A stretch of 64,000 nt of DNA from Phycisphaeraceae bacterium (GCA_019636655.1 JAHBXB010000001.1:62001-126000), one strand, 5' to 3'; shown: positions 46,343 through 60,924, counted from the first letter of the stretch. Notes: generated from the letters alone by a model not told the origin. Numbers and translations are program-made.

Positions 46343-46795
46343 ATGACGTCCGGTAACGAACATTTGGTCGTCCGTCAGCATGACCGGCATGAGTGCCAGG
46401 TCGCCGTTGAGGTTGCGGTTTCGTCGGAGCACGCTCGCAAGGTGGTGCTCTCACGGACCGTGGGGGATGGCGCTGGCACGATTCAGGTGACCATGGTTGA
46501 CATCAGTTCGGGCGGGCTCGGGCTCTCGTCGAACGTCTTCCTCCCCAAGGGGTGTCACCTCGACGTCCGCCTGATACGAGCCGACGACCAGGCCGGCGGA
46601 TCGAAGTCCGCCCGGACGATCTTCGAGACCCGCGTGCGGATCCAGCGCACGGCGATGGTCGACAAGTCGCCTACGTACTACATCGGGACGGCGTTCATCA
46701 GCGACGATCCCGTCGAGGAATCCCAGCGCCGGGCGCTGATGGAGCAGATCCGAAACGGCGCGCTCTCGGCGGGAGAGGCGGGTGCGCATGTTTAG
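46343..46795 (+). CDS. PilZ domain protein
   Basis: 150-residue protein with a PilZ fold, a candidate c-di-GMP receptor. The N-terminal RxxxR-type motif is RQHDRHECQVAVEV (R12, R16) and the second motif is V-D-I-S-S-G-G-L-G-L (D/NxSxxG form), so the c-di-GMP ligand residues are preserved. ATG at 46343. It is the first gene of the secretion/pilus-like set and its end overlaps the start of the GspE-like ATPase by 8 bases, suggesting direct control of the assembly ATPase by c-di-GMP. That control is inferred. Confidence 0.88.
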   Translation: MTSGNEHLVVRQHDRHECQVAVEVAVSSEHARKVVLSRTVGDGAGTIQVTMVDISSGGLGLSSNVFLPKGCHLDVRLIRADDQAGGSKSARTIFETRVRIQRTAMVDKSPTYYIGTAFISDDPVEESQRRALMEQIRNGALSAGEAGAHV

Positions 46796-48509
46796 CCACG
46801 ATGAGTTCGTGATCGCGATGCTCGTCGAGGACGGGCGGCTGGACCGGGCCCGCGCGGAGGATGTCGCGCGGCACGCCCTGGAGAAGAAGGTCGGCAAGTC
46901 GCAGGCGGTCATCGACCTGGGGATCGTGCCCGCGAGGGACGTGACGATCACGCGGGCCGCCATCGCCGAGTGTCCGTTTGTTGATCTTGATCAGTTTGAA
47001 ACGGATATCAGCAACGCCTCTCGCCTGCCGCGGACAGTGGCCGAGGGGCTCGAGGCGTTCCCGCTGTTCGAGCTCGGGGACCTGACGACCGTCGGCATGG
47101 CCGACCCGCTGGACCTCAAGGCGGTCGATCAGCTCCGCGCCCTGCTCAAGACCGACATCGAGCCGGTGCTCTGCGAGCCCGGCGCGCTGGCCAAGCTGAT
47201 CGCGAGCGCCTACTCGCTGCACGCGGGCGGTGACACGCGTCTCTCGCCCGCCGTGCAGGCCGCGAGCCTGACCACGGGCGACGAGCCGATCGTCGCCGCG
47301 GTGAACCAGATCATCGCCCAGGCGGTGATGGAGAACGCGAGCGACATCCACATCGGGCCCGACGAGTCGTCGCTGCACCTGCGCTTCCGCGTGGACGGGG
47401 CGCTGCACCCGCGCCAGGGGCCGCCGCTGTCGGCGCACCTCGGGTTGGTGCAGCGTCTCAAGGTGATGGCCAACCTGGACCTCACTGTGACGCGCCGGCC
47501 GCAGGACGGCAAGTTCCGTTTCACGCATGCCGACCGGGCGGTGGATATCCGGCTGAGCATCATCCCGACGGTGTGCGGCGAGAACGTCGTCATGCGGCTC
47601 CTGGCCTCGGGCGGCACGATCAAGGGATTCGCTGAGCTGGGGCTGCCGCCGGCGATCACCACCCAGTTCGAGTCCGCGATCGAGCACCCGCACGGCATGA
47701 TCCTGGTCACGGGCCCGACCGGCTCGGGAAAGACGACGACGCTCTACACGGCCATCAAGCGGCTCAACAGCCCTGACGTCAACGTCATGACGATCGAGGA
47801 CCCGGTCGAGATCCGGCTCCCGATGGTCCGCCAGATCCAGGTCCACAGCGAGATCGGCATGACCTTCGCGGGGGCGCTGCGTTCGATCCTGCGGCAGGAC
47901 CCGGACGTGGTGCTCGTGGGCGAGATCCGCGACGAGGAGACCGCCCGCATCGCGGTGCAGGCCGCGCTCACCGGCCACCTGGTGCTCAGCACGCTGCACA
48001 CCAACGATGCGCCCGGCGCGATCGCGCGGCTGCGCGACTTCGGTCTCCCGGCCTTCGCCATCAACTCGGCGCTGCTGTGCGTGGTCGCCCAGCGGCTGGT
48101 GCGGCGCGTCTGCCAGCACTGCGCCGCACCCGACCATCCCACGCCGCTCGTGCTCGCCCGCTTCGGGCTCAGCCCCGACAAGGCCAGTTTCCAGCGCGGC
48201 GCCGGGTGCGGACGCTGCAGCAGCACCGGCTACCGCGGCCGCATCGGCGTGTACGAGATGCTCGACATGGGCATCCCCGTGCAGAAGGCGATCGACAAGG
48301 GCGCGACCACGATCCAGATCAAGCAGGCCGCCGAGTCGTGCGGCTACCGCCCGATGTGGTTCGACGGCCTGGAGAAGGCACAGCTCGGTCACACCACGCT
48401 CGAAGAGGTGTCCCGCGTCGTCGCGCTCGAACTCTCCGGCGAGGACGCCGGGTCCGCCGACCACGCCGCGCATCACCCGGACGGCACCGCAGGGAGGCTC
48501 AGCGCATGA
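46788..48509 (+). CDS. gspE: GspE/PilB-type secretion ATPase
   Basis: Assembly ATPase of a type II secretion or type IV pilus-like system. In 573 residues: an N-terminal domain of the T2SSE_N/MshEN type (FVIAMLVEDGRLDRARAED..), then the ATPase core with Walker A GPTGSGKTT at residues about 309-317, Asp box IEDPVE, Walker B VLVGEIRDEET and His box HLVLSTLHTNDAPGA. A tetracysteine zinc motif CQHC (about 442-445) and CGRC follows, as in GspE/PilB. ATG at 46788; a GTG at 46782 is possible. The stop overlaps the GspF start (ATGA). The nucleotide-binding N-terminus might bind c-di-GMP as in MshE, but the motif is incomplete. Confidence 0.95.
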   Translation: MFSHDEFVIAMLVEDGRLDRARAEDVARHALEKKVGKSQAVIDLGIVPARDVTITRAAIAECPFVDLDQFETDISNASRLPRTVAEGLEAFPLFELGDLTTVGMADPLDLKAVDQLRALLKTDIEPVLCEPGALAKLIASAYSLHAGGDTRLSPAVQAASLTTGDEPIVAAVNQIIAQAVMENASDIHIGPDESSLHLRFRVDGALHPRQGPPLSAHLGLVQRLKVMANLDLTVTRRPQDGKFRFTHADRAVDIRLSIIPTVCGENVVMRLLASGGTIKGFAELGLPPAITTQFESAIEHPHGMILVTGPTGSGKTTTLYTAIKRLNSPDVNVMTIEDPVEIRLPMVRQIQVHSEIGMTFAGALRSILRQDPDVVLVGEIRDEETARIAVQAALTGHLVLSTLHTNDAPGAIARLRDFGLPAFAINSALLCVVAQRLVRRVCQHCAAPDHPTPLVLARFGLSPDKASFQRGAGCGRCSSTGYRGRIGVYEMLDMGIPVQKAIDKGATTIQIKQAAESCGYRPMWFDGLEKAQLGHTTLEEVSRVVALELSGEDAGSADHAAHHPDGTAGRLSA

Positions 48510-49708
48510 GCACGATCGCGTTCGAATACACCGCACTCGAGAAGTCCGGCGTCAAGCGCCGGGGCGTGCTCCGCGCCGGCAGCAAGGCCGACGCCCTCCG
48601 CCAGGTCGCCGCGCTGGATCTCACGCCCGTCCGCATCAAGCAGGTGCGGGAGGTCGTCCGCGCCCGAGGCCGGACCATCCGCGTCAAGGACATCGCGCAC
48701 TTCACGTACCAGTTCAGCGTTCTCATGGGCGCCCGCATCCCGATCGGAGAGGGCCTGCTCTCCATCGCCCAGCAGGAGACCAACGCCAAGCTCCGCGAGG
48801 TCATTACCGACATCGCCACGCGCATCGAGGCCGGCGAGCAGATCGCCAACGCGATGACGCATCACCACAAGGTCTTCGGCGAGTTGTACATCCAGACGAT
48901 CCGCGCCGCCGAGCGCACGGGCAACCTCGTGCCCGTGCTGGAGCACCTCTCGGAGCTGCTCGAGCGCCAGCGGGAAAGCCAGCAGCAGGTCCGGTCGGCC
49001 CTCATGTACCCCACCTGCGTCGTCGTCGTCCTGGTCCTGGCTGTCACGTTCCTGATCGGCGTGGTCATCCCCAAGTTCGCCAAGATGTTCGCCTCCAAGG
49101 GGCAGCAGCTCCCGATCTTCACGCGCATCCTCATGGCGGTCGGCGAGTCCATGCAGGCCTACTGGTGGGCCTACCTCGGTGCCGCCGTGGCGGGCGTGTT
49201 CATGATCAAGTTCGCCTGGAATCGCCCGCGGGGCCGGAACTTCATCGAGGCCATCTTCCACCGCATCCCGATCATCAAGGACATCCTCGTCGGCGCGGCG
49301 ATGAGCCGCTTCACGCGAGTCCTGGGCCTAGGCGTGCAGTCGGGCGTCGGCCTGATCGACTCGATCGAACTGGCTTCCAACGCCTCCGGACGCCCCGCGC
49401 TGCTCCGCGACGGCCAGCGCATCGCCGAACAGGTCCGCACCGGCGGACGGCTCAGGGACGTCCTGGCTGTCTGCGGTTATATTCCCAACTTCGCAAAGCG
49501 CATGCTCAGCGCGGGCGAGGAGTCGGGCGACGTCCCCAAGATGTGCCAGCTCATCGCCCGCCACTACGAGCGGGAGACTGCACACCTGACCAAGAACATC
49601 GGCACGGTCATCGAGCCCGTGCTCATCGTGCTCATCGCCGGCGTCGTGCTGGTCGTCGCCCTCGCGATCTTCCTGCCGATGTGGGACATGGTCAAGCTGG
49701 TGAGCTAG
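48506..49708 (+). CDS. gspF: GspF/PilC-type inner-membrane platform protein
   Basis: Polytopic platform that couples ATPase rotation to pseudopilus assembly. The 400-residue protein has two T2SSF domains; the first (about 65-190) includes QFSVLMGARIPIGEGLLSIAQQE and the second (about 270-395) FTRVLGLGVQSGVGLIDSIELAS and AGEESGDVPKMCQLIARHYE. Membrane helices are near residues 172-190 (CVVVVLVLAVTFLIGVVIP), 214-232 and 372-392. Length is typical for GspF. It is coupled to gspE by an ATGA overlap. An inverted repeat lies after the stop. Confidence 0.95.
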   Translation: MSTIAFEYTALEKSGVKRRGVLRAGSKADALRQVAALDLTPVRIKQVREVVRARGRTIRVKDIAHFTYQFSVLMGARIPIGEGLLSIAQQETNAKLREVITDIATRIEAGEQIANAMTHHHKVFGELYIQTIRAAERTGNLVPVLEHLSELLERQRESQQQVRSALMYPTCVVVVLVLAVTFLIGVVIPKFAKMFASKGQQLPIFTRILMAVGESMQAYWWAYLGAAVAGVFMIKFAWNRPRGRNFIEAIFHRIPIIKDILVGAAMSRFTRVLGLGVQSGVGLIDSIELASNASGRPALLRDGQRIAEQVRTGGRLRDVLAVCGYIPNFAKRMLSAGEESGDVPKMCQLIARHYERETAHLTKNIGTVIEPVLIVLIAGVVLVVALAIFLPMWDMVKLVS

Positions 49709-50013
49709 ACCCGTCCAGGCACCACGACCCCTTGTTGCAGGAGAGCGGACGCCCCGACGCGTCCGCTCTCATTCCCATGCGCCCGCCGCGGCCCCAAGCC
49801 GGCTGCGCGTGAAGCCTGAGCGCCTGTGCCGCGGAGTCCGTCTATGACGCTCTGGCGCTCTGGGGCTGGTCGGCGCTGCACCGAAACGCTCATGAAGGCC
49901 AGTCTCCTGTCGGATACATACACGGCGGGTGCCACGATCGCAATCGTCCGTTGCAACCACGCATTCCCGTTGTCGGAAGACTCGAGCCCCGCCGGGGCCG
50001 GAAAGGAGCCAAG
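49709..50013 (+). other. 305-base intergenic stretch in front of pseudopilins
   Basis: No gene seen. It holds the strong inverted repeat at 49741-49770 (separate entry), a small GCCCC/GGGGC hairpin (49986-49998) next to the ribosome binding site, and a GGAAAGGAG Shine-Dalgarno at 50000-50008. Its role is probably to end the gspEF transcript and carry the promoter for abundant pseudopilin expression, which would need more product than the ATPase. AT-richer words such as GGATACATAC (49915-49924) may be a -10 but no clear pair was found. Confidence 0.55.
49741..49776 (+). terminator. Hairpin after gspF
   Basis: GAGAGCGGACGC (49741-49752), loop CCCGAC, GCGTCCGCTCTC (49759-49770), a perfect 12-bp stem. 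The following ATTCCC is only weakly U-rich. It may partly stop transcription between the motor genes and the pseudopilin genes. Confidence 0.7.
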
Positions 50014-50496
50014 ATGGATCTCGTGCTGAATCGGGGGAACAAGAACCGGGCGTTTACGCTGATCGAGCTCATCGTTGTGATCGTCGTTCTGGCGATCCTC
50101 AGCGGCATCGCCATCCCCAAGTACATTGACTACACGGCCAACGCCAAGGCGTCCTCCTGCAAGGGCACGCTCGGCGGCGTTCGCTCCGCGATCGCCAACT
50201 TCTATGCGAACCGCGCCGCCAACGGCACGGCCGCGTACCCCACCGTGGGCGAGATGAACACCTTTGGTTCGACCGGCGTGATGCAGGAAGCCATCCCGGC
50301 CAACCCCTATATCTCGACCACGACCCTGGTCAGCGGCACCAGCATCCCGACCAATGCGTACGTCATCGCGGGCACCTTCCCGGCGCCCCCGACGCTCCCC
50401 CCGGTCGAGACCACCGCGACCGGCGGCTGGCGCTACGACGCGACCAACGGCCGCTTCTGGGCCAACAGCAACACCGTCGGCGAGAACGCCTGGTAA
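50014..50496 (+). CDS. Major pseudopilin A (GspG/PilA-like)
   Basis: 160-residue type II secretion/type IV pilin-like subunit. The prepilin signature is N-R-A followed by FTLIELIVVIVVLAILSGIAIPKY, with cleavage expected after Ala13 (Ala rather than the usual Gly at -1), Phe14 becoming residue +1 and Glu18 at +5. The long hydrophobic helix is the filament core. The C-terminal domain has one conserved region ending GRFWANSNTVGENAW. A strong SD (AAAGGAG) is 5 bases before ATG 50014. The next gene is a close paralogue. Confidence 0.93.
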   Translation: MDLVLNRGNKNRAFTLIELIVVIVVLAILSGIAIPKYIDYTANAKASSCKGTLGGVRSAIANFYANRAANGTAAYPTVGEMNTFGSTGVMQEAIPANPYISTTTLVSGTSIPTNAYVIAGTFPAPPTLPPVETTATGGWRYDATNGRFWANSNTVGENAW

Positions 50497-50531
50497 TCAC
50501 TCGCAGGCGGGTCGCCGATCCGATGCAATCG

Positions 50532-50570
50532 ACCCGCCGGTGGTAACGCGCCGGCGGGTTCTTTCTTTCC
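50532..50570 (+). terminator. Hairpin with U-rich tail between the two major pseudopilins
   Basis: ACCCGCCGG (50532-50540) pairs with CCGGCGGGT (50551-50559) around a 10-base loop, followed by TTCTTTCTTTCC. It sits 36 bases past pseudopilin A and could attenuate read-through so that A is made in excess of the downstream genes. Confidence 0.7.
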
Positions 50571-50641
50571 TGATAGCCGTCTCTGCTCCACGTGGCAAGT
50601 GGGGCTGGGGCAAGCGAAACGATCGAGACCAGCGAGACCTC

Positions 50642-51082
50642 ATGACGACCTGCTCCCGCATCCCGACGAGCGCCCGCAGGGCATTCACACTGATCGAGCT
50701 GATCGTGGTGATCGTCGTCCTCGCGATCCTCTCGGGCGTCGCGATCCCCAAGTACCTTGACTACTCCGCCTCGGCCAAGGCCTCCTCCTGCCGTGCTACC
50801 CTCGGCGCTGCGCGCTCCGCCATCACCAACTACATCGCCCAGTCGGGTTTGAACGGCGCCGCGACGCCCCCCGCCCTGGTCACGTTCCAGACCCTCGGCG
50901 GCGTCATGAACGAGCCGCTCCCCGCCAATCCCTACATGGCCTCCAGCGAGATCGCCGCCGCCACCTACCCCGCGAGTCCCGCAACGCCGCCTCCGGTCAG
51001 CGGGTCCCACGGCTGGAACTATGACCCCGCCTCCGGCCGCTTCTGGGCCAACAGCGACACCGTCGGAGAAAACACGTGGTAG
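50642..51082 (+). CDS. Major pseudopilin B (GspG/PilA-like)
   Basis: 146-residue paralogue of pseudopilin A. Cleavage is expected after Ala14 (S-A-R-R-A before FTLIELIVVIVVLAILSGVAIPKY) with Glu19 at +5. The C-terminus is NYDPASGRFWANSDTVGENTW, almost identical in pattern to A's. The two genes differ mainly in the middle loop (NYIAQSGLNGAATPPALVTF..). ATG at 50642. Its stop overlaps the GspH-like start by 7 bases. Together they may be two filament components or a duplicated substrate. Confidence 0.9.
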   Translation: MTTCSRIPTSARRAFTLIELIVVIVVLAILSGVAIPKYLDYSASAKASSCRATLGAARSAITNYIAQSGLNGAATPPALVTFQTLGGVMNEPLPANPYMASSEIAAATYPASPATPPPVSGSHGWNYDPASGRFWANSDTVGENTW

Positions 51083-51606
51083 CCGCCACTCATGCCGCAT
51101 CCCGCCGCCGCGCCTTCACCCTCGTCGAGATGATCGCGGTGATGGTCGTTGTCTCGGTGGTCGCGGCCGTGGCGATCCCGTCGTTCTCCTCGATCGCAGG
51201 GACCCGCCAGATCGCCGCCGCGAGGCTCCTGCTCCGAGACCTTACCTACGCCCGCGAGCGGGCGATCGCCACGGGCACCCGCGTCTGGGTCGTCTTCTCC
51301 GTCAGCGGCAACTCGTACTCCGTGCTCGCCGAGAACCCGGCCGCCCCCGGCCGGGCCGGCGCCGCCATCATCCCCGACCCGTCGGCCCCGAACCGCACCT
51401 ACCAGCAACTGCTCAACACCGGCGAGTTCTCCGGGGTCCAGATCGTCAGCGCCGCGTTCGACAGCCAGGTCGAGGTCGGGTTCGACTGGTGCGGCCGGCC
51501 GCTCAACACCACCTCCGCGTTCCTCGCCGCGAACGGCGTCGTCACCCTCACCGGCTCCAAGACCGTCACCGTGCAGGCCCGAACCGGGCTGTGCACCATG
51601 CCCTGA
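51076..51606 (+). CDS. GspH-like minor pseudopilin
   Basis: 176-residue minor pseudopilin. Signature R-R-R-A before FTLVEMIAVMVVVSVVAAVAIPSF, cleavage after Ala13 and Glu18 at +5. The following ARLLLRDLTYARERAIATGTRVWVVF is the typical start of the GspH/FimT C-terminal domain, with an RAIA-x-x-G-x-x-V pattern. A pair of cysteines (Cys at about 137 and near the C-terminus in TGLCTMP) may form a disulphide. Start is GTG at 51076, overlapping pseudopilin B by 7 bases. Confidence 0.9.
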   Translation: MVAATHAASRRRAFTLVEMIAVMVVVSVVAAVAIPSFSSIAGTRQIAAARLLLRDLTYARERAIATGTRVWVVFSVSGNSYSVLAENPAAPGRAGAAIIPDPSAPNRTYQQLLNTGEFSGVQIVSAAFDSQVEVGFDWCGRPLNTTSAFLAANGVVTLTGSKTVTVQARTGLCTMP

Positions 51607-51613
51607 GGCCACC

Positions 51614-52063
51614 ATGGTCCCCCGCGCCCCCGCACGCACATCCCGCCGCTCACCCGCCCGCCGCGGGTTCACGCTGATCGAGGCGATCGCCTCGATGGTC
51701 ATTCTCGGCATCGCGCTCCCGCCCATGCTCTGGGCCGTTCGCCAGGAGCACCGCAACCGCATCTCGCCCCTCTACGCCTCCAAGGCCCGCTGGCTTGCGA
51801 CCGAGAAACTCGAGGACATCATCGCCGACCGCCACAGCACCACCCGCGGCTACGCCTACCTGACCGCCGGCAACTACCCCGCCGAGGCCACCATCAGCGG
51901 CTACCCGGGCTTCTCGCGCTCCGTCGCTCTCGTCGAAACCGGTCCGGACCTCGCCACCGCCGGCACGGGCTACATGAAAGTCACCGTCTCCGTCACCTGG
52001 ACCGACTCCACCGGGACGTCGCGGACCCTGCCGGTCAGCACCGTCCTCACGGATTACAACTGA
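51614..52063 (+). CDS. GspI/PilV-like minor pseudopilin
   Basis: 149-residue minor pseudopilin. Signature A-R-R-G before FTLIEAIASMVILGIALPPML, with Gly18 at -1 and Glu23 at +5. The ASKARWLATEKLEDIIADRH part is similar to the GspI/PilV helix, and the C-terminus ends in a beta-strand-rich region with VTVSVTWTDSTGTSRTLPVSTVL. ATG at 51614, 8 bases after the GspH-like stop. With the GspJ- and GspK-like products it would form the pseudopilus tip. Confidence 0.85.
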   Translation: MVPRAPARTSRRSPARRGFTLIEAIASMVILGIALPPMLWAVRQEHRNRISPLYASKARWLATEKLEDIIADRHSTTRGYAYLTAGNYPAEATISGYPGFSRSVALVETGPDLATAGTGYMKVTVSVTWTDSTGTSRTLPVSTVLTDYN

Positions 52064-52071
52064 GCCACCCG

Positions 52072-52647
52072 ATGAACCGCCCCGCCCGCAATCGCCGCAC
52101 GCACCCACGCGCCGCCCGCCGCCGCGCCGGCTACACGCTGGTCGAGGCCATCGTGGCCATCGTGATCGTCGCGCTCCTCGGCTCGGTCGCCTCCACCATG
52201 ATCTTCGAGTCCATCAAGGGCTACCGCGACGCGGCTGTCCGCGGCCAGATCCACCAGAACGTCTCCGCCGCCGCCGATCGCCTCACCAGGTCGCTGTGGA
52301 GCATCAACCGCGACACCTCCGCCTCGGTCGTCGCCCCCGCGATTTCATCGGTCGCCCCGTCGGCAATGACCTTCAACTCCAACTGGAGCCTTTCGCTCTC
52401 CGGCGGCCAGTTGCTCCTCAGCGAGAACGGCCAGACCGCAACCCCGCTGGTCCACAATGTCTCCGCGTTCTCCATCCAGTGCTACGACGAGTCCAACAAC
52501 GCCCTAGGCGCCACGCTCAGCGGCGCGGCCACGCAGGGCATCCGCCGGATCCAGATGCAGATCACCGTCACCGAGCATGGTCTCAGCGAGACGATCCGGA
52601 TGAAGGTCTATCTGCGAAGCACCATGAAGGGAGCGGCCATCGGATGA
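52072..52647 (+). CDS. GspJ/PilW-like minor pseudopilin
   Basis: 191-residue minor pseudopilin. An unusually long, strongly basic pre-sequence (about 20 residues rich in Arg) ends in R-R-R-A-G before YTLVEAIVAIVIVALLGSVAST, with Gly20 at -1 and Glu25 at +5. The mature C-terminus carries a beta-rich domain (VHNVSAFSIQCYDESNNAL.., IRRIQMQITVTEHGLSETIRMKVYLRS) of the GspJ/PilW type. Its stop overlaps the next start (ATGA). Confidence 0.82.
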   Translation: MNRPARNRRTHPRAARRRAGYTLVEAIVAIVIVALLGSVASTMIFESIKGYRDAAVRGQIHQNVSAAADRLTRSLWSINRDTSASVVAPAISSVAPSAMTFNSNWSLSLSGGQLLLSENGQTATPLVHNVSAFSIQCYDESNNALGATLSGAATQGIRRIQMQITVTEHGLSETIRMKVYLRSTMKGAAIG

Positions 52648-53054
52648 GAACCCTGAGGCCCATCCCAGCCGCCCGCCGCCGAGCCCGCCACCGGGGCTCG
52701 ATTGGTCTGGCCATGGTCATCGTGCTCATCATCGTTCAGCTCACTGTCATCGGTGTCGTTACTACCGGTGTGCGCGAGCAGGACATCACCATCCAGCGGC
52801 TCGATACCCTGCGGGCCTTCTACGCCGCCGAGGGCGGCATGAACATGGCCATCCGCGAGATGATGAACAACGTCGACGAGGACGGCGACGGCGTCATCGG
52901 CACCATCAGCGACGACGGCAACGCCGCGAACGACCCCGCGCTCGCCGCGGCCCGCTTGGTCGTCACCAAGTCGATCTCCGGTCCCCAGATCACCCTCACC
53001 AGCCAGGGCCGCTCCGGCATCGCCCGGCGCAAAGCCCAGGCGGTGCTCCAGTAG
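52644..53054 (+). CDS. PilX/GspK-like protein lacking Glu+5
   Basis: 136-residue protein with a prepilin-like N-terminus: H-R-G before SIGLAMVIVLIIVQLTVIGVVTTG. Gly18 could be the -1 residue, but there is no Glu at +5 (Ala instead), as in PilX-type minor pilins. After the helix, FYAAEGGMNMAIREMMNNVDEDGDG is the pattern of PilX/GspK N-terminal domains (A-E-G-x-x-x-A), and DEDGDGVIG may bind calcium. The domain is much shorter than GspK (about 300). It is the last pseudopilin-like gene before the beta-helix pair. Confidence 0.75.
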   Translation: MRTLRPIPAARRRARHRGSIGLAMVIVLIIVQLTVIGVVTTGVREQDITIQRLDTLRAFYAAEGGMNMAIREMMNNVDEDGDGVIGTISDDGNAANDPALAAARLVVTKSISGPQITLTSQGRSGIARRKAQAVLQ

Positions 53055-53073
53055 GCCCGCCGGAGGACCAGCA

Positions 53074-54354
53074 ATGACCAGCGTCCGCGCCAGTCTGCCA
53101 TGGATCCTCGCCGCCGCGGCGATGCTCGCGGCCGCTTCTGCCGCCGACGCCACGACCTACTTTGTCCGCAAGACCGGTTCGGACAGCAACAGCGGGACGT
53201 CGAAGAACGCGGCCTGGCGGACCGTCGACAAGGCCGCCACCGTTGCCTCCGCCGGCGACATCGTCTACGTCGGCGCCGGCACCTACTCCGAGCAGGTCTC
53301 GCCCGACAAGGACGGCACCGTCGGCTCGCGGATCCGCTACATCGCCGATGTGAACGGCACCTACACCGGCGATTCGGGGGCCGTCATCGTGCAGGCCCCC
53401 AACGGCAAGAACGCGCTCTCGCTCGACAACGCCGACTACACCGAGTTCACCGGCTTCCAGTTCGTCGGTTCGACCGGAAAGGACGCCGTCATCTGGAAGA
53501 AGGCAGTGGGGGGGCTCCTTGATTCCTGCATCATCCGCGACAGCCCCAAGGACGGCATCGACATCGACGACGCCACCCTCACGATCACCAATTGCACCAT
53601 CTACAACACCAAGAACCACGGCGTCATCGCATCGGGATCCACCTCGGTCATCACCATCACCGACTCGGTCATCCGTGACTGCGGCAACAACGCCATCGAC
53701 CTCAACACCTCCTGCACCGTCTCCGTCGCCGGCTGCTCCCTCTACAACAACAAGGACGCCATCAACATCTCCGGTGCGGTGAGCGCCACCGTCCGTTCCA
53801 CGCAGATCTTCACCTCGATCAACGGCATCTGGCTCGCCGGTAACTGCACATTCTCTGCCGCCAACTGCCTGATCCACACCATGTCCGGTGATGCTGTCCG
53901 CCTGGAGAACAAGAGCGGCATCAACGCCTCCTTCTGGCACCTCACCGCGTACGGCATCTCGGGCAACGCCTTCTATATGCGCAACGGCGCCGCCACCATC
54001 AAGAACTGCATCGTCTCGACCTGCTCCGGCCGCGGGCTGTACGTCACCGGCGGCTCGCTCATCCACTCTCACAACATCCTGCACAACATCGCCGCCGGCG
54101 CTTACTCGGGCACTTCCTCCGCCGTCGGGGAAACCACGGCCGACCCCAAGTTCGTCTGGACCGGCATCGACTTTCATCTCTCCGCCTCCTCGCCCGCGAT
54201 CAACACGGGAACCAGCGCCAGCCCGGTGACCACGGCCGACCTCGGCGGCTCGGTGCGCCCCCAGGGTGGCGGGTGGGACATCGGCTGCTACGAGTTCGGC
54301 GCCGGCGGCACCCCGACCCCCAAACTGGTCAGTTGGACGGAGATCGAGCCATAA
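53074..54354 (+). CDS. Secreted right-handed beta-helix protein A
   Basis: 426-residue exported protein with a signal peptide (about residues 1-27, cleavage near ADA-TTY). The mature part opens TTYFVRKTGSDSNSGTSKNAAWRTVDKA..AGDIVYVGAGTYSE, a DUF1565-like start, followed by about ten parallel beta-helix coils (e.g. DNADYTEFTGFQFVGST; DATLTITNCTIYNT; NTSCTVSVAGCSLYNN) as in pectate-lyase-fold proteins. The end is RPQGGGWDIGCYEFG then a short linker and LVSWTEIEP. SD GGAGG lies upstream of ATG 53074. It is paralogous to the next gene, and both sit inside the secretion operon. Confidence 0.88.
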   Translation: MTSVRASLPWILAAAAMLAAASAADATTYFVRKTGSDSNSGTSKNAAWRTVDKAATVASAGDIVYVGAGTYSEQVSPDKDGTVGSRIRYIADVNGTYTGDSGAVIVQAPNGKNALSLDNADYTEFTGFQFVGSTGKDAVIWKKAVGGLLDSCIIRDSPKDGIDIDDATLTITNCTIYNTKNHGVIASGSTSVITITDSVIRDCGNNAIDLNTSCTVSVAGCSLYNNKDAINISGAVSATVRSTQIFTSINGIWLAGNCTFSAANCLIHTMSGDAVRLENKSGINASFWHLTAYGISGNAFYMRNGAATIKNCIVSTCSGRGLYVTGGSLIHSHNILHNIAAGAYSGTSSAVGETTADPKFVWTGIDFHLSASSPAINTGTSASPVTTADLGGSVRPQGGGWDIGCYEFGAGGTPTPKLVSWTEIEP

Positions 54355-54360
54355 ACCTCT

Positions 54361-54379
54361 TGCATCGCTTTCAGCTTCG
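54361..54379 (+). repeat. Post-stop motif after beta-helix gene A
   Basis: TGCATCGCTTTCAGCTTCG, beginning 6 bases after the stop. A near copy lies after the second beta-helix gene (55628-55647). Confidence 0.45.
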
Positions 54380-54416
54380 CCCCCAGCGCATGTCCCCGGT
54401 CACCGGAGAACCTCGC

Positions 54417-55613
54417 ATGATCCGCTCCCGCGTCTCCCTCATCGGCGTCGTCGTCCTCGCGCTCGCCGCCCAGGCCGCCCAGGCCACGACCTACTTCGTC
54501 CGAGTCACCGGCAACGACGCCAGCGCCGGCACCGCGCCGGCGACGGCCTTCCGCACTATCACCAAGGCGATGGCCGTGGCGGGTGCCGGCGACACGGTTT
54601 ACATCGGCGCCGGCACCTACGCGGCGGCTCTCTCCGCAAGCAAGTCGGGAACCGCTGTAGCACCCATCATTTTCGCCGCCGACCTCGACGGCTCGCGCAC
54701 CGGCGACGCCGGCGCGGTCATCGCCACCGCTGCTGGAAAAAGCGTCCTCACCATCAAGAACCAGGATTATCTCACCTACCTGGACATCGAGTTCCGATCC
54801 GGGACTGAAGGGGTGAGCATCCAGAACAGCGACGGCACGACGCTTCTGCGGTGCACCGTTCGCAACTGCACGGGCGATGCCGTCTCCGTCACCAACTCGG
54901 GCAGCATCATCGGCACGATCACGGTCGACGGGTGCACCATCACGAACTGCAGCGGCTCAGGCCTGGTTGTGAATCAGAACGCCACGGTCGTCGTGCGCGA
55001 CACGTCGTTCTCCTCGCTGTCCGGCGGCATGTCGCTGCTCTGGCCCAACTCCTCTCTGAACGTCAATCGCTGCATCCTCAGTTCGATCAGCGGCCGCGCG
55101 GTGAACATCGACCGTGGTGTCGCCAGGCTCTCCAACATCCTCGCGGTCTCCTGCGCGGCCATGGGCGTTCGGGTCGGCTCCCACTCGTCGGTTGACGTCA
55201 AGATGGTGAACACCACCATCGCCGCCGTCTCCGGGCCCGCCGTGAAGCAAGAGGGTGGCGTGTTTGTCATGCATAACGTCGTCGTCGCCGGCTCAACCAC
55301 CGGCTTCCAGCGCACCGGCGGCACCACCACCCACAGCCACAACCTCTACTACAACTGCCCGACGACCTATTCCGGCGTCTCCGCCGGATCGTCCGACCTC
55401 ATCGCCGATCCCAAGTTCGCCGGCCTGGGTGACTATCGCCCTCTGACCGACTCCCCCGCCGTCGATTCGGGTTTCGATGCGTCTTCGCTCACCGCCACCG
55501 ACCTCGACCGCAAGCCGCGTCCCCTCGGCGGTGGCTGGGATCGCGGCTGCTACGAGTTCGGCACCGTGCCGTCGCTCCGAATCCTGCAGTGGAACGAGAT
55601 CGAGCCCAACTGA
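54417..55613 (+). CDS. Secreted right-handed beta-helix protein B
   Basis: 398-residue paralogue of protein A. Signal peptide MIRSRVSLIGVVVLALAAQAAQA, then TTYFVRVTGNDASAGTAPATAFRTITKA..AGDTVYIGAGTYAA and about nine helix coils. The C-terminus matches A: PLGGGWDRGCYEFG, linker, and ILQWNEIEPN. The shared ending W-(T/N)-E-I-E-P, with different linkers, suggests a functional tail. ATG at 54417 is preceded by GGAGAACC; ATG at 54390 is a weaker alternative. It is likely a tandem duplication with A, since a flanking motif is also repeated. Confidence 0.88.
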   Translation: MIRSRVSLIGVVVLALAAQAAQATTYFVRVTGNDASAGTAPATAFRTITKAMAVAGAGDTVYIGAGTYAAALSASKSGTAVAPIIFAADLDGSRTGDAGAVIATAAGKSVLTIKNQDYLTYLDIEFRSGTEGVSIQNSDGTTLLRCTVRNCTGDAVSVTNSGSIIGTITVDGCTITNCSGSGLVVNQNATVVVRDTSFSSLSGGMSLLWPNSSLNVNRCILSSISGRAVNIDRGVARLSNILAVSCAAMGVRVGSHSSVDVKMVNTTIAAVSGPAVKQEGGVFVMHNVVVAGSTTGFQRTGGTTTHSHNLYYNCPTTYSGVSAGSSDLIADPKFAGLGDYRPLTDSPAVDSGFDASSLTATDLDRKPRPLGGGWDRGCYEFGTVPSLRILQWNEIEPN

Positions 55614-55627
55614 GCGAAGGCCGGTCC

Positions 55628-55647
55628 TGCAATCGGTTTCAGTTTCG
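55628..55647 (+). repeat. Post-stop motif after beta-helix gene B
   Basis: TGCAATCGGTTTCAGTTTCG, beginning 14 bases after the stop, matching the sequence at 54361-54379 at most positions with one inserted base. Confidence 0.45.
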
Positions 55648-55833
55648 TTCAATCCCTCAATCAAGGGTGATCCGTTCTCCGGCTGCGCCCCCGGTCCGGG
55701 GCTGGGGATCTCACGGAATGCCTTGGCATCTGCTTCCTCTAGCGCAACCAACGAAAGGCCCCCTCCGATCAGGCCGATAGCGCCAGGTACGCACTTCTCT
55801 CGCTCGACTGGTACCGCTCCCCGAAGGCATGCC

Positions 55834-57534
55834 ATGAAGACCACCAACACTCGTGCGAAGTCCGCGATTGTCGAGATCTCGCCCTCGCGTCTCGAGGTGT
55901 CGGTGTTCTCCAGCGGCAAGCCCGCCATTCACACGTTCTTCCTTGACCAGTCCGAGTGGGGCGACAACTGGCCCGGCGTTCTCCGCGGCCTCTCCGACCC
56001 TCTTGCTAACCTCGTCCAGCAGTCTGGTCTCGTGGGCGCAGCGCCCACCGTCGTGTACGTCGCGCCCACCTCTGCCGTCGGCGTCTTCTCCTGCCCCGCC
56101 TCCGCCGGCAAGGCTTCCGCGGCGACCTCCGCGATGCTCGGTCTTGCCGGCGTCTGCCCGTTCCCGCTGGAGGGCCAGCCCTCCGGTGTCCGGCACCTCG
56201 GCACCGACAAGCCCGGCGCCGACGGCGCCGCCGGAGTCCAGGTTCACAATCTCGGCGCCGCCGACACCGATGCCTCGGTCCAGGCCATCGCCGACCTTTG
56301 CGGCCGCGCCGGCCTTGCTCCGATCTGCTTCATCCCCGCCGCGGCCGCCGCGACCGCCGATGCCGTCCGCCTTGCCCTGGAGGCCTCGGCCAAAGGCGGC
56401 GTCCACGCCGTGTTCTGGCTCGGCACGCAGGTCTCGGTGCTCGCCGTGGCCAACGCCGGCCGCCTCCGCCTCGTCCGCAACCCCTCGCTGGGCACCGACC
56501 TCTTCGTCGAGGCCCTGATCCGCCCGATCCGCGCCCGATCCAGCGACAGCCAGCCGCCGCGCGACGCCGTCACCCTTACCCGCGACCAGGCCCGTGAACT
56601 GCTCGCCCGCGCCGGCATCCCGGCCGCGGAGCAGGTCGTCGACGAGGCCCGGGGCATTCATGGCGCCGGCCTGCTCCCGCTGATGCAGCCCGTCCTGCAG
56701 CGGCTGAGCGTCGAGGTCAAGCAGTCCCTTCGTTTCGGTCTCGAGGATGCGGAGCGCGAGGCCCTCAGCCTCTCGCTCGCCGGACCCGGGTCGCTTCTCC
56801 CCAATCTCCCGCAGACTCTCGCGCGCCAGACCGGCCTCTCGCTCGGCGCCGAACAGACCTCCAGCGACCGCGATGCCCACGGCCTCGCCGCGGCGGTCCG
56901 CGCCGGCGAGTCGGTTCTGCCCATCCTCCGCCCGTTCTCAATGGAACAGGCCTCGACGTTCCGCACCACGCGGCGCACCGTCTGGGTCGGCCTAGCCGCC
57001 GCCGCCGCGGTGGTTGCCGCCGACATCGGCACCTCCTGGATGGCCCTGAGCCACGCCAACGAGCGAGTCACCCAGCTCAAGAACCAGGTCGCCCGCGATT
57101 CCGCCACCACGCCGGAGCAGGTCGCGGCGGAAGCCGCCCGCGAGAAAGTCCTCGCCCTCAGGGAGGCTATCTCCACGCAGATGGGCGACAAGGTCGACTG
57201 GAGCGCCTTCCTGACTCTTCTCGCAGACACCACCCCCGAGAACATCCGCTTCTCCAGCGTTGAGGTCGGCTTCTCCGGCCGCCGCGCCTGCACCCTCACC
57301 GGCTACCTCGATGGCGCTTCGGGCGCCGAGGCTGCTTCGGCCCTGCAGGCGTACATGTCCAGCCTGGCAGCCGTTCCACTCGTCGCCAACGTCTCCCTGG
57401 GCACCACCCAGCGGAGCCAGCGCGACGGCCGACCGGTCCAGCAGTTCGAACTCTCCGTCCTGCTCCTGGGCCTGCCGTCCAACACCGTGATAAGCGACAA
57501 GGACGCCGGCCAGATCTCCGCCGGCGAGCGGTGA
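55834..57534 (+). CDS. GspL-like protein (PilM-like ASKHA domain plus PilN-like domain)
   Basis: 566-residue assembly protein. The N-terminal about 370 residues resemble an actin-like ASKHA (PilM/GspL cytoplasmic) domain, opening SAIVEISPSRLEVSVFSSG and containing HAVFWLGTQVSVLAVANAGRLRLVRNPSLGTDLFVE. A single membrane helix, VWVGLAAAAAVVAADIGTSWMAL, is near residues 386-408, followed by a periplasmic PilN/GspL-type domain with a coiled coil (ANERVTQLKNQVARDSATTPEQVAAEAAREKVLALREAI) and the ferredoxin-like part. This domain order (ASKHA, helix, PilN fold) is that of GspL. ATG at 55834. It starts the second half of the operon after a 220-base gap. Confidence 0.82.
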   Translation: MKTTNTRAKSAIVEISPSRLEVSVFSSGKPAIHTFFLDQSEWGDNWPGVLRGLSDPLANLVQQSGLVGAAPTVVYVAPTSAVGVFSCPASAGKASAATSAMLGLAGVCPFPLEGQPSGVRHLGTDKPGADGAAGVQVHNLGAADTDASVQAIADLCGRAGLAPICFIPAAAAATADAVRLALEASAKGGVHAVFWLGTQVSVLAVANAGRLRLVRNPSLGTDLFVEALIRPIRARSSDSQPPRDAVTLTRDQARELLARAGIPAAEQVVDEARGIHGAGLLPLMQPVLQRLSVEVKQSLRFGLEDAEREALSLSLAGPGSLLPNLPQTLARQTGLSLGAEQTSSDRDAHGLAAAVRAGESVLPILRPFSMEQASTFRTTRRTVWVGLAAAAAVVAADIGTSWMALSHANERVTQLKNQVARDSATTPEQVAAEAAREKVLALREAISTQMGDKVDWSAFLTLLADTTPENIRFSSVEVGFSGRRACTLTGYLDGASGAEAASALQAYMSSLAAVPLVANVSLGTTQRSQRDGRPVQQFELSVLLLGLPSNTVISDKDAGQISAGER

Positions 57535-57541
57535 ACCGCCA

Positions 57542-58207
57542 ATGAACGACCCCTCCCGTCAGATCGGCATCGAACTGTTCCTCGGCGTCGCCGCGTGCGT
57601 GGCTGCTGCCACCATCCTGGTGGACCCGCTGCACAAGAAGATCGTCGCGGCCAACGACGAGGCGACCCGCCTCGTCGCCTTCACCGGCCCGGGCGCCGCC
57701 GGTCCCATCATCCCAGCCGACCGCGCCGCCGAGGTGCTCGCCAACTCCCAGCGCCAACTCGCCCAGATCGCGAAGCAGGGCGAGGCCGTCCGTGACAAGG
57801 CCGCCCTCTACACCAGCCTCATGTCCGCCGCCGAGCGGCACTCGATCAAGGTTGACCAGGTCCAGCCCGCGAACTCCTCCAAGCCCACCGGCTCCGCCAA
57901 CAAGAACGCGCCGCTCCCACCCCCGATGGCTCCGGGCGTCTGGGCCTCCGCTCCCGCCCCCGCGACCATCGACGTCCGCGGCGAGTCGACGATCTTCCTC
58001 ATGACCGCCGAGGGAGCCTACGGCAATCTCACCGCGTTCCTCCGCGAACTCCAGGACGGCGGCGGCCTCCTCCGCATCCGCTCCGTCCGCCTCGACCCGG
58101 TCCAGAACTCCAACCCGCCCCTGCTCAGGGCCATGATCGAGACCGAGCACTTCACCTTTGAGATCGCTCAGCCCACCGTGGCCGCGGGCGCGGAGGGCAA
58201 CCCATGA
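57542..58207 (+). CDS. GspM/PilO-like assembly protein
   Basis: 221-residue inner-membrane protein. A single N-terminal membrane helix (about 9-28, ELFLGVAACVAAATILVDPL) is followed by a coiled-coil region (AADRAAEVLANSQRQLAQIAKQGEAVRDKAALYTSLM) and a small ferredoxin-like domain (IFLMTAEGAYGNLTAFLRELQDGGGLLRIRSVRLD), matching GspM/PilO. It lies 7 bases after the GspL-like gene and overlaps the next gene (ATGA). A Pro/Ala linker splits the two parts. Confidence 0.78.
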   Translation: MNDPSRQIGIELFLGVAACVAAATILVDPLHKKIVAANDEATRLVAFTGPGAAGPIIPADRAAEVLANSQRQLAQIAKQGEAVRDKAALYTSLMSAAERHSIKVDQVQPANSSKPTGSANKNAPLPPPMAPGVWASAPAPATIDVRGESTIFLMTAEGAYGNLTAFLRELQDGGGLLRIRSVRLDPVQNSNPPLLRAMIETEHFTFEIAQPTVAAGAEGNP

Positions 58208-58737
58208 AGATCCACTCCACTACGGGCCGCCGCCTCCTGGTCCTCGGCGCCCTCGTCGGCCCTGTCATTTTGTTCCAGTCGGCGAGGTTCCTGATGAGCA
58301 CCCCCCAGGCGCCCTCCGCCGCCAACGCGACGACGACCGCCGCCCCCGCTCCCGCGGCGCCGGCTCGCGGCCCCGCCGCGCTGAGCCCCGAGCAGACCCG
58401 CGCGATCGAGTGGCTCGCCAAGCAGCCCGAGCGGCCCTCCCGATCCCCGATGGAGGCCCCGCTGCGCAAGGTCGTCGTCGACGACGAGCCCGTCGAGGTC
58501 GTCGCCGAGGCGCCGACGCCCCCGCCGCCCGCGGCCCCGGGCCTCCCGCCCCTCACCCTCTCGCTCATCATGAACAGCCGCGGCGAGTCCGTCGCCATCC
58601 TCAGCGGCAAGACCTACCGCAAGGGCGACGAGGTCGCCTCAGGCTGGAAGGTCGACAAGATCGACCACGACGCATGGTCGGTCACGCTCCGCCATCCCGA
58701 CGGTCGCTCGGCCGAGATCAACGCCGTCAAGCGATAG
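58204..58737 (+). CDS. GspC/PilP-like protein
   Basis: 177-residue protein with an N-terminal membrane helix (about 9-28, RLLVLGALVGPVILFQSARFL), a Pro/Ala-rich periplasmic linker and a C-terminal HR-like domain: LTLSLIMNSRGESVAILSGKTYRKGDEVASGWKVDKIDHDAWSVTLRHPDG. The pattern 'L-x-G-I-x-x-...-A-I-x-x-x-G-x-x-x-x-G-x-x-V-x-x-x-x-V-x-x-I-x-x-x-x-V-x-L' of GspC/PilP secretin-contacting domains is recognisable. In known systems this domain meets the secretin. Since no secretin is in the window, its partner must be encoded elsewhere. It ends the operon. Confidence 0.72.
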   Translation: MKIHSTTGRRLLVLGALVGPVILFQSARFLMSTPQAPSAANATTTAAPAPAAPARGPAALSPEQTRAIEWLAKQPERPSRSPMEAPLRKVVVDDEPVEVVAEAPTPPPPAAPGLPPLTLSLIMNSRGESVAILSGKTYRKGDEVASGWKVDKIDHDAWSVTLRHPDGRSAEINAVKR

Positions 58738-58743
58738 CCTGGG

Positions 58744-60924
58744 TCAGCGCCCGGGTTTCGCCCCCGGTGTCGCTCCGCCGGGCACGGTGTAGTTCACCCC
58801 GAGCTGGTCGAACAGGAACCCGTACACATCCACGTCCTGCTCGATGCGCTCGCTCAGCGACGAGCCGATCCCGTGCCCCGACGTCGCGCTCGTCCGCAGC
58901 AGCACCGGGTTCGACGACGCCGCCTGCAGCGCCGCCGTGAACTTCCGCGAGTGCATCGGGTCCACCCGCGGGTCGTTCGCCCCGGTCAGCATCAGGATCG
59001 GCGGGAGGTCCTTCCCGGCCGTGACGTGCTGGTACGGCGAATACGCCGCCAGTGCGCGGAACTGCTCGGGGTCCTTCACGGTCCCGAACTCCGTCACGTT
59101 GAACGCCCCGTTCGGCGAGAGCTCCACCCGCAGCATGTCGTAGATCCCGACGTGCGACACGCACACGCCGAACAACTCCGGGTGCTGCGTCATCAGCGCG
59201 CCCATTAGCAGTCCGCCGTTGCTCCCGCCCATGATCGCCAGCTTCTTCGGCGAGGTGTACCCCGCCTCCTCCAGCCGCCGGCAGCACGCCGCGAAGTCGT
59301 CGAACACGTTCTGCTTCTTCGTCAGGTTCCCCTCGCGGTGCCACTGGTCCCCATACTCGCCGCCGCCCCGCAGGTGCGCCACCGCGAAGACCCCGCCTTG
59401 CTCCAGCCACACCTTCCGCACCGCCCGGAAGTTCGGCGAGATGCTCACGCCGTACCCGCCGTACCCCCACAGGATCGTGGGGTTGTTCCCGTCCAGCTTC
59501 GTCCCCTTTCGCATCAGGATGGTCATCGGCACCTTCGTCCCGTCCTTCGAGACCGCCGTCTCCCGCACGACCTCGCAGTCCGCGAAACTCACCGGCGAGG
59601 TCGACGCCAGCGCCGTCTTCCTCAGGTCGCCGTTCTTCGGGTTGAACCGGTACCACGCCGCGGGCTCCAGCATGGACTCGTTGTGGATCAGCACCTCGTC
59701 CCCGTCCGTCGCGACCACGTGGTCCACCGACGACACCGGCAGCACCGTCGGCGACAACTCGGGCATCCCCAGCCGGTTGAACACCCGCACCCGGTTCGGC
59801 CCGCCCACCTGGTCGATCAGGTACAGCCGGTTCTTCGTCACCACGATCCCGATCTTGTCCGAGAACAACGTCTCGATGTTCGCATCCGGCGCCTCGGGCA
59901 CGATCTCCACCGCGTCCTTCAGCGACCCGGTCAGCGGCATCGTGATGATCTTGCCCTTCGGGGCCCCGTTGCGGGAGACGAAGTACACATCCCCGTTTCC
60001 TCCCAGCGACCCGTGAACCACCTTGTCCTTGAACCCCGTCAACTGCTTCCACGACCCATCGGGGAACCGCACGAAGTGCGAGAACTCCCCCCCGTCCCCG
60101 TCCTGCACCGTCGCCAGCACGTTCTTCCCGTCCTTGGACGTCTCCAGGTTGATCTCCGCGATCCTCGGGAAGTCCTTGCCGATCTCGTACCGGTCCTCTT
60201 CCGTCTTCCCGCCCAGCGGGTGGAAGTAGACCTGGGTGTAGAAGTCCATGTCCTCCGCCGCCCGCTCATTCCCGCGCGGGTACCGCGTGTACCAGAATCC
60301 CGAGCCGTCCGCCGCCCACGCCAGGTCCCCGCCCGCCGTGCCGCCGTTCACGCGCGGCACCACCGAGCCCACCGGCTTGCCCGTCGCCACGTCGAACACG
60401 TGCACATCACCCGCCTCCGAGCCCCCCTGCGACATCGACACCGCCAGCAGCTTCCCGTCCGCCGACGGCCGGTACCAGTCGATCGCCGTCAGCCCCTTCG
60501 TGTCGATGACATTCGGATCGACCACCACCCGCTCGGTCTCCGGCCGGTCCGCCGACTCCATCACCACGATGAACGGCTGCTGCTTCGGCGGCTGGTGCTT
60601 GAGCACAAACAGCTTCCCGCCCGCCGCGTGCAGCTCCGTGTGCCGCACCGTGTCCGACGACGACAGGTCCGTGATCCGCGCCCGGATTGCCTCGATGTTC
60701 GGCAGGTGATCCAGCACGCTCCGCGCATACTCGTTCTGCGCATCGCTCCACGCCCGCACCGCCGGATCCTCCCAGTTCTCCAGCCACTGGTACTCGTCCA
60801 CCACCTTTACGCCGTGGTACTCGTTCGTCACCGGCTTCTTTGCCGTCTCCGGCGGCGCGCCCAGGGCAACCATCGAAACCGCGCCCGCGGCGCACACGCC
60901 AAACATCCGGCTGATCGTCATCAC
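58744..60924 (-). CDS. Prolyl oligopeptidase family serine peptidase (S9A)
   Basis: 726-residue serine peptidase cleaving after proline. The N-terminal about 23 residues (MMTISRMFGVCAAGAVSMVALGA) look like a signal peptide, so it would be exported. A beta-propeller domain occupies the middle. The alpha/beta-hydrolase catalytic domain has IMGGSNGGLLMGA (Ser near residue 566), LTGANDPRVDPMHSRKF (Asp near 646) and SGHGIGSS (His near 681), all conserved. The frame is on the minus strand, convergent with the secretion operon (6-base gap), so it is a separate unit. Confidence 0.93.
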   Translation of the reverse strand: MMTISRMFGVCAAGAVSMVALGAPPETAKKPVTNEYHGVKVVDEYQWLENWEDPAVRAWSDAQNEYARSVLDHLPNIEAIRARITDLSSSDTVRHTELHAAGGKLFVLKHQPPKQQPFIVVMESADRPETERVVVDPNVIDTKGLTAIDWYRPSADGKLLAVSMSQGGSEAGDVHVFDVATGKPVGSVVPRVNGGTAGGDLAWAADGSGFWYTRYPRGNERAAEDMDFYTQVYFHPLGGKTEEDRYEIGKDFPRIAEINLETSKDGKNVLATVQDGDGGEFSHFVRFPDGSWKQLTGFKDKVVHGSLGGNGDVYFVSRNGAPKGKIITMPLTGSLKDAVEIVPEAPDANIETLFSDKIGIVVTKNRLYLIDQVGGPNRVRVFNRLGMPELSPTVLPVSSVDHVVATDGDEVLIHNESMLEPAAWYRFNPKNGDLRKTALASTSPVSFADCEVVRETAVSKDGTKVPMTILMRKGTKLDGNNPTILWGYGGYGVSISPNFRAVRKVWLEQGGVFAVAHLRGGGEYGDQWHREGNLTKKQNVFDDFAACCRRLEEAGYTSPKKLAIMGGSNGGLLMGALMTQHPELFGVCVSHVGIYDMLRVELSPNGAFNVTEFGTVKDPEQFRALAAYSPYQHVTAGKDLPPILMLTGANDPRVDPMHSRKFTAALQAASSNPVLLRTSATSGHGIGSSLSERIEQDVDVYGFLFDQLGVNYTVPGGATPGAKPGR

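Follow-up and report, generated by a model that had tools for sequence, protein, structure and literature searches.

Myxococcus PilY1 is encoded together with FimU, PilV, PilW and PilX, and in AlphaFold-Multimer models the eight C-terminal residues of PilY1.3 (LQNVYELP), and likewise those of PilY1.1, form a strand added to PilX (PMC11046646). The strand addition of PilY1 to PilX recurs in four complexes, and pilY1 is found in clusters of minor pilin genes, alongside fimU, pilV, pilW and pilX (PMC13190605). Here we compare with these systems an operon in a 64,000-nucleotide stretch of one strand of DNA from Phycisphaeraceae bacterium (GCA_019636655.1 JAHBXB010000001.1:62001-126000; the whole stretch is called the window), in which two genes for beta-helix proteins stand among pilus-type machine genes (46343–58737, +). 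By analogy with PilY1, the beta-helix pair probably serve as non-pilin tip proteins of a type IVa-like filament, docking on PilX. What is conserved is a short W-x-E tail together with a PilX-like partner; the beta-helix itself is not.

Orthologous operons were collected by a GspE scan, which gave 17 loci in Phycisphaerales, and by a profile of the GspI/PilV-like pilin, used as the marker for the operon, which gave 78 matches in 397 genomes of the class (~60 loci read). The order PilZ-E-F-pilins-H-I-J-X-(slot)-PilMN-PilO-PilP recurred in about 57 genomes, and the arrangement is therefore not due to chance; an earlier sequence-only reading of the window had proposed just such a search for homologous gene orders. 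The slot after H-I-J-X corresponds to the place of pilY1, and in the window the beta-helix genes likewise follow pilX in the minor pilin cluster. It holds two beta-helix proteins in the window and one in L036, L094, L096 and L097 (L, G, C and f numbers denote loci, genomes, contigs and families). In L048, which has two pilX genes with two tail proteins, the slot holds a beta-helix protein, the second PilX and a beta-helix/FG-GAP protein; in L050, an FG-GAP protein; and in L051, two propeller-like proteins, of which the second is truncated where the contig stops (fold named by eye, with no Pfam match). In L039, L042, L043, L047, L102 and L103 PilX is itself extended by PA14 and DUF7305. The slot content of L037 could not be read with confidence, and both pilX and a slot gene were absent from four operons (L038, L040, L093 and L104). 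A further contig of G374 (L098) carries a separate cluster of minor pilin genes that includes pilX, and a protein encoded nearby ends RITSWQAVQPSP.

The smallest well-supported group of the GspE tree that includes the window (n = 13) contains beta-helix, PA14-fusion, empty and PilX-less states, and slot content therefore turns over fast; the gap between pilX and pilMN appears to be a cargo slot. The beta-helix genes were rejected as a constant part of the operon, a point on which the sequence-only reading is corrected, since in ~37 relatives the operon is retained with nothing in the slot (~450–600 bases from the end of J to MN) and others hold unrelated folds there. Taken alone, this absence of the beta-helix genes from relatives that retain the operon is what that reading had named as refuting it; but several of the empty-slot genomes carry tail proteins at other loci.

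In 10/10 complete non-pilin slot proteins, the final 20 residues contained the pattern [VILM]xWxE (KLVSWTEIEP, RILQWNEIEPN, SVLRWTEVDPR, RLVQWREIDRPQR, RLVEWREVGVQRE, QLVRWREIER, IIVRWREKQSY, KMVKWQEIPPGY, QILQWTEVDPMVP and RVVSWQEVKP). Of the remaining proteins predicted at these loci and in the window genome, 2/1257 matched, one of them the L051 slot protein, leaving a background of ~1/1256; random draws from the proteins' own composition gave an expected frequency of 0.002 per protein. When the tails were cut off, the bodies of the tail proteins (including non-slot ones and two PilX fusions) fell into four BLAST groups, with beta-helix and FG-GAP proteins joined in one group via chimeras. 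The tail Trp was also kept in five of the six PilX-PA14-DUF7305 fusions (SILSWTD in L042 and L043, LLTWGE in L047, and Trp in L039 and L102). Similar endings are common in PilX-DUF7305 proteins of further planctomycetes (YKIVSWREVN, YEIISWSEIN, VRMWRESA, RLYWRDL), and additional GspK-like pilins (L239, L293 and L294) have LTWREL or LTWEDL close to the C-terminus. The only constant part of the slot proteins is a short aromatic/acidic, strand-like C-terminal segment, which in other genomes is part of PilX itself.

For beta-helix protein 1, AlphaFold predicted a confident beta-helix over residues ~28–320 (predicted local distance difference test, pLDDT, mostly >80), and residues 376–426, including the tail, were disordered in the lone monomer. 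The nearest solved folds, at modest TM-scores, were PL9 pectate and rhamnogalacturonan lyases, GH136 lacto-N-biosidases and PL6 alginate lyases, which makes a glycan-binding or glycan-cutting role of the modelled domain plausible; PDB profile matches of the beta-helix were local only and did not resolve catalytic residues. These enzyme relatives fit a different account of the locus, in which a pseudopilus like that of a type II secretion system (T2SS) releases the beta-helix proteins as substrates, possibly polysaccharide lyases, and PilX/GspK recognises the tail as a signal for secretion. The resemblance of the PilM-PilN fusion to GspL and the H/I/J/K set also speak for it. However, the window GspE scored best among NCBIfam models with TIGR02538 pilB (520 bits, under its cut-off) and reached 499.7 with the T2SS equivalog TIGR02533 (cut-off 630); the tail is covalent in the PilX-DUF7305 pilins, which cannot be released; and a T2SS-like cluster that includes a gspD-like gene is present at a separate site in the same genome (C1:1.16–1.18 Mb). 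We consider this secretion account unlikely.

The tests run place the machine encoded by the operon with type IV pili rather than with T2SSs. The type IVa core is present (PilB-type ATPase, PilC platform and a major pilin with class III signal), as is the PilM-N-O-P alignment complex with M and N fused, whose single matches are weak and whose profiles and order are kept in ~57 genomes. Elsewhere in the window genome (3.66 Mb, 8 contigs), which has many GspE-type ATPases, three PilT/PilU-family ATPase genes scoring above the curated cut-off are candidate retraction ATPases. The PilZ protein and the MshEN domain suggest that the filament may be under cyclic di-GMP (c-di-GMP) control. Other pilus-like clusters of this genome (G000 C3:280k, L026; C4:258k, L024; C1:1021k, L021) are split: GspE/PilM/N/O-type genes occur with no secretin among them, and a PilQ-like secretin accompanies pilins but has no adjoining ATPase.

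No secretin gene was found within the window operon. The sequence-only reading had inferred a distinct planctomycete system, with a secretin encoded elsewhere or another pore as the outer-membrane exit, and had advised looking for a secretin and a prepilin peptidase in the rest of the genome. Six secretin domains and one prepilin peptidase match were found there, which supports an exit encoded elsewhere. Founding without a secretin was rejected: in the GspE tree the operons of family f7 are sister to all others, and in 13 of them a secretin of ~620–780 residues lies directly after pilP, so the lineage leading to the window has lost its secretin or had it replaced. The absence is then a derived state, a rearrangement, as that reading had itself allowed for if relatives carried gspD in the same set. 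With the window genome's secretins as queries, none was found beside the operon at orthologous loci in the window's gene order. The nearest relatives of the f7 operon secretin in the window genome had ~33% identity over the secretin domain, and in a tree of that domain it had no orthologue there. A PilQ-like gene at C1:1021k was considered as the partner and could not be assigned; it occurs too in the operon-negative genome G013. The filament would presumably exit via one of the secretins encoded elsewhere. Separately, we noted a giant secretin at G000:C3:31–41 kb (L018:3–10247, +), whose single open frame of ~3,900 codons encodes 29 Secretin_N stretches and, at the C-terminus, one secretin domain. 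Six further genomes (G002, G264, G107, G344, G032 and G013) have comparable frames of 3,580–5,073 codons, and two of the six lack the pilus operon. The height of such a channel would suit a very deep periplasm.

We next consider tail proteins outside the slot. In a scan of the order for the choice-of-anchor Q domain, many members ended in dockerin-like repeats or PEP-CTERM; the window pair have the W-x-E tail after this domain and neither PEP-CTERM nor dockerin. Non-slot W-x-E proteins with choice-of-anchor Q were all in operon-bearing, empty-slot genomes, at other loci: adjoining an Hsp70 gene in G341, G291, G264, G282, G383 and G347 (Hsp70 Pfam-confirmed in two), and at other places in G096, G276 and G344. 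The loci of slot-empty genomes with an Hsp70/DnaK-like gene beside W-x-E (or near-terminal) tail proteins are L239, L240, L243, L248, L291 and L295. Co-occurrence was measured in 44 same-family genomes, 28 with the operon and 16 without, operon status being set independently by GspF (in exact agreement with GspI). Two profiles ending in the tail, covering only two architectures, gave tail-reaching matches in 13/28 operon-positive and 0/16 operon-negative genomes (Fisher p = 0.0007, relatedness uncorrected); the choice-of-anchor segment of the profile nevertheless found matches in 9/16 operon-negative genomes. If the tail were a generic surface anchor comparable to dockerin or PEP-CTERM, with a receptor other than PilX and only secondary linkage to the operon, this would explain why it stands behind choice-of-anchor Q and why some of the genes lie beside Hsp70 rather than pilins. 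Such an anchor would not be expected to be built into PilX-type pilins or to go undetected in all 16 operon-negative genomes, and we regard it as improbable, more so than secretion. That the beta-helix genes are mere passengers in a conserved operon, as ~37 empty slots and the differing slot contents of close relatives might suggest, is very hard to credit when one and the same rare tail recurs in all the differing insertions and tail proteins persist at other loci in slot-empty genomes.

The slot position matches that of pilY1, the slot proteins are variable, Sec-type and non-pilin, and their constant tail is also found inside PilX; the pair are therefore read as PilY1-like and held by PilX. 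The PilY1 propeller (PF05567) matched neither beta-helix protein and none of 246 planctomycete genomes, a search in which 14 control genomes were likewise silent; lacking the propeller, the pair would work like PilY1 while standing outside the PilY1 family. In the mechanism we propose, the operon would build a c-di-GMP-responsive type IVa-like filament and the beta-helix proteins would reach the periplasm via Sec. There the C-terminal W-x-E tail would join the PilX-like cap pilin as an added beta-strand, in an initiation complex of PilX with the H/I/J pilins, and the filament would grow out through the secretin displaying a carbohydrate-binding-type beta-helix at its tip. In relatives the same plug would carry FG-GAP, propeller-like, LamG/beta-helix or PA14 folds, or be fused to PilX itself. 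A 2026 preprint by Ellison et al., cited in PMC13190605, reportedly deals, by its title, with beta-strand complementation in tip initiation complexes of diverse type IV filaments. A dedicated surface role for the pair, one of the options in the sequence-only reading, gains support, as a surface or tip role, from the tail common to slot proteins, the PilX fusions and the co-occurrence.

Several observations weigh against the proposed mechanism. The window has a single pilX for two tail proteins, and the AlphaFold model of the L042 PilX-PA14-DUF7305 fusion had low confidence at the pilin head and tail, with no docking seen. The fusion in L103 lacks the tail Trp. The motif is not always terminal: in G185, G189, G347 and G392, 50–80 residues follow the motif or a near form of it (RRIARWREANQE, RRVITWRTTDQ, RRVLLWGEMTHD and HRRLARWRESNQR). 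The co-occurrence p ignores kinship, six of the 16 operon-negative genomes belonging to one genus, and in about half of the operon-positive f1 genomes the two-architecture profiles detected no tail protein.

It is quite possible, if short of probable, that the W-x-E strand is a portable docking plug, by which any Sec-exported carrier becomes a tip protein of a planctomycete type IV filament, in trans or fused to PilX, with its genes spread across loci and folds. If so, PilY1 would be a single instance of a broader plug-in tip system, in which tip proteins could be swapped without altering the pilus machine and only the ten-residue tail must stay. The tail would offer a sequence handle for tip proteins in phyla without PilY1, allow the proposed addition of a strand to PilX to be tested from sequence alone, and account for adhesin-like genes both within pilus operons and far away.

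All genes that the sequence-only reading had listed were found on a single strand and in the same order, borne out by family matches and orthologue profiles (Table 1); its GspL-like gene is indeed GspL-like and more exactly a PilM and PilN fusion, by weak matches. An N-methylation motif is present in five window pilins, the two major-like and the GspH-, GspI- and GspJ-like ones. The PilX/GspK-like gene has no family match of its own; a profile built from orthologues recovers it in nearly all orthologous operons and matches the N-terminus of the PilX-PA14-DUF7305 proteins. Its DEDGDG loop is conserved where the slot is filled and in f7 operons; most f1 operons with an empty slot have lost it. 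The two beta-helix proteins are 37% identical to each other, and an alternative start of the second at 54390 is possible. The PilO/GspM and PilP/GspC assignments come mainly from position and orthologue-built profiles. The downstream neighbour (58747–60924) lies on the opposite strand.

Table 1. Genes and tail segments of the operon, in window coordinates.
Feature	Position	Strand	Evidence
PilZ-domain protein, probable c-di-GMP receptor	46343..46795	+	PF07238 1.1e-5; leads operon in orthologues
Extension ATPase GspE/PilB, MshEN (c-di-GMP-binding type) N-domain	46782..48509	+	PF00437 (T2SSE) 3e-125, PF05157 9e-16
Platform protein GspF/PilC	48506..49708	+	PF00482 (T2SSF) 5.7e-54
Major pilin 1	50014..50496	+	N_methyl 1.9e-8
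Major pilin 2, close paralogue of major pilin 1	50642..51082	+	N_methyl 5.4e-7
GspH/FimU-like minor pilin	51076..51606	+	PF12019 3.3e-5
GspI/PilV-like minor pilin	51614..52063	+	N_methyl; 38-69% identity among 11 orthologues
GspJ/PilW-like minor pilin	52072..52647	+	N_methyl; weak TIGR01711
PilX/GspK-like cap pilin, short, no Glu5, EF-hand-like DEDGDG loop	52644..53054	+	orthologue profile; EF-hand_1 0.016
Beta-helix protein 1: signal peptide, beta-helix, choice-of-anchor Q (aa 367-408), W-x-E tail	53074..54354	+	PF13229 3e-26; NF041518 37.7 bits
W-x-E tail of beta-helix protein 1, ...PKLVSWTEIEP	54319..54351	+	motif match
Beta-helix protein 2: beta-helix, choice-of-anchor Q, W-x-E tail	54417..55613	+	PF13229 1e-12; NF041518 27.2 bits
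W-x-E tail of beta-helix protein 2, RILQWNEIEPN	55578..55610	+	motif match
PilM-PilN fusion (GspL-like)	55834..57534	+	PilN 7e-4, PilM 5e-4; kept in orthologues
PilO/GspM-like	57542..58207	+	T2SSM 0.1; orthologue profile
PilP/GspC-like	58204..58737	+	T2SSB 0.027; orthologue profile

Among known systems, the T2SS shares GspE/F/H/I/J/K/L/M-like parts with the window operon, which differs in having no gspD and in encoding PilO and PilP separately; the gspD-like gene of the T2SS-like cluster lies elsewhere in the genome. The mannose-sensitive haemagglutinin (MSHA) pilus resembles it in the MshEN-type ATPase, which with PilZ suggests c-di-GMP control, and also has a putative non-pilin adhesin, MshQ (PMC7096442); unlike MSHA, the window operon has no MshL-type secretin. 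The PilY1/PilC adhesins of Myxococcus, Pseudomonas and Neisseria share the minor pilin cluster, the large Sec-exported protein and the variable domains, and the PilY1 C-terminal strand modelled onto PilX (PMC11046646, PMC13190605) is what we propose for the window tail; the window proteins differ in having no PF05567 propeller, their constant part being only the ~ten-residue W-x-E tail. In the modular pilins PilB and PilC of Streptococcus sanguinis (PMC8179133), a minor pilin carries PA14-type adhesin modules, an arrangement also seen in the PilX-PA14-DUF7305 proteins of the six fusion operons, where the module is covalent on the pilin; in the window, by contrast, the module is a separate polypeptide encoded by its own gene, with the tail acting, as we propose, in trans.

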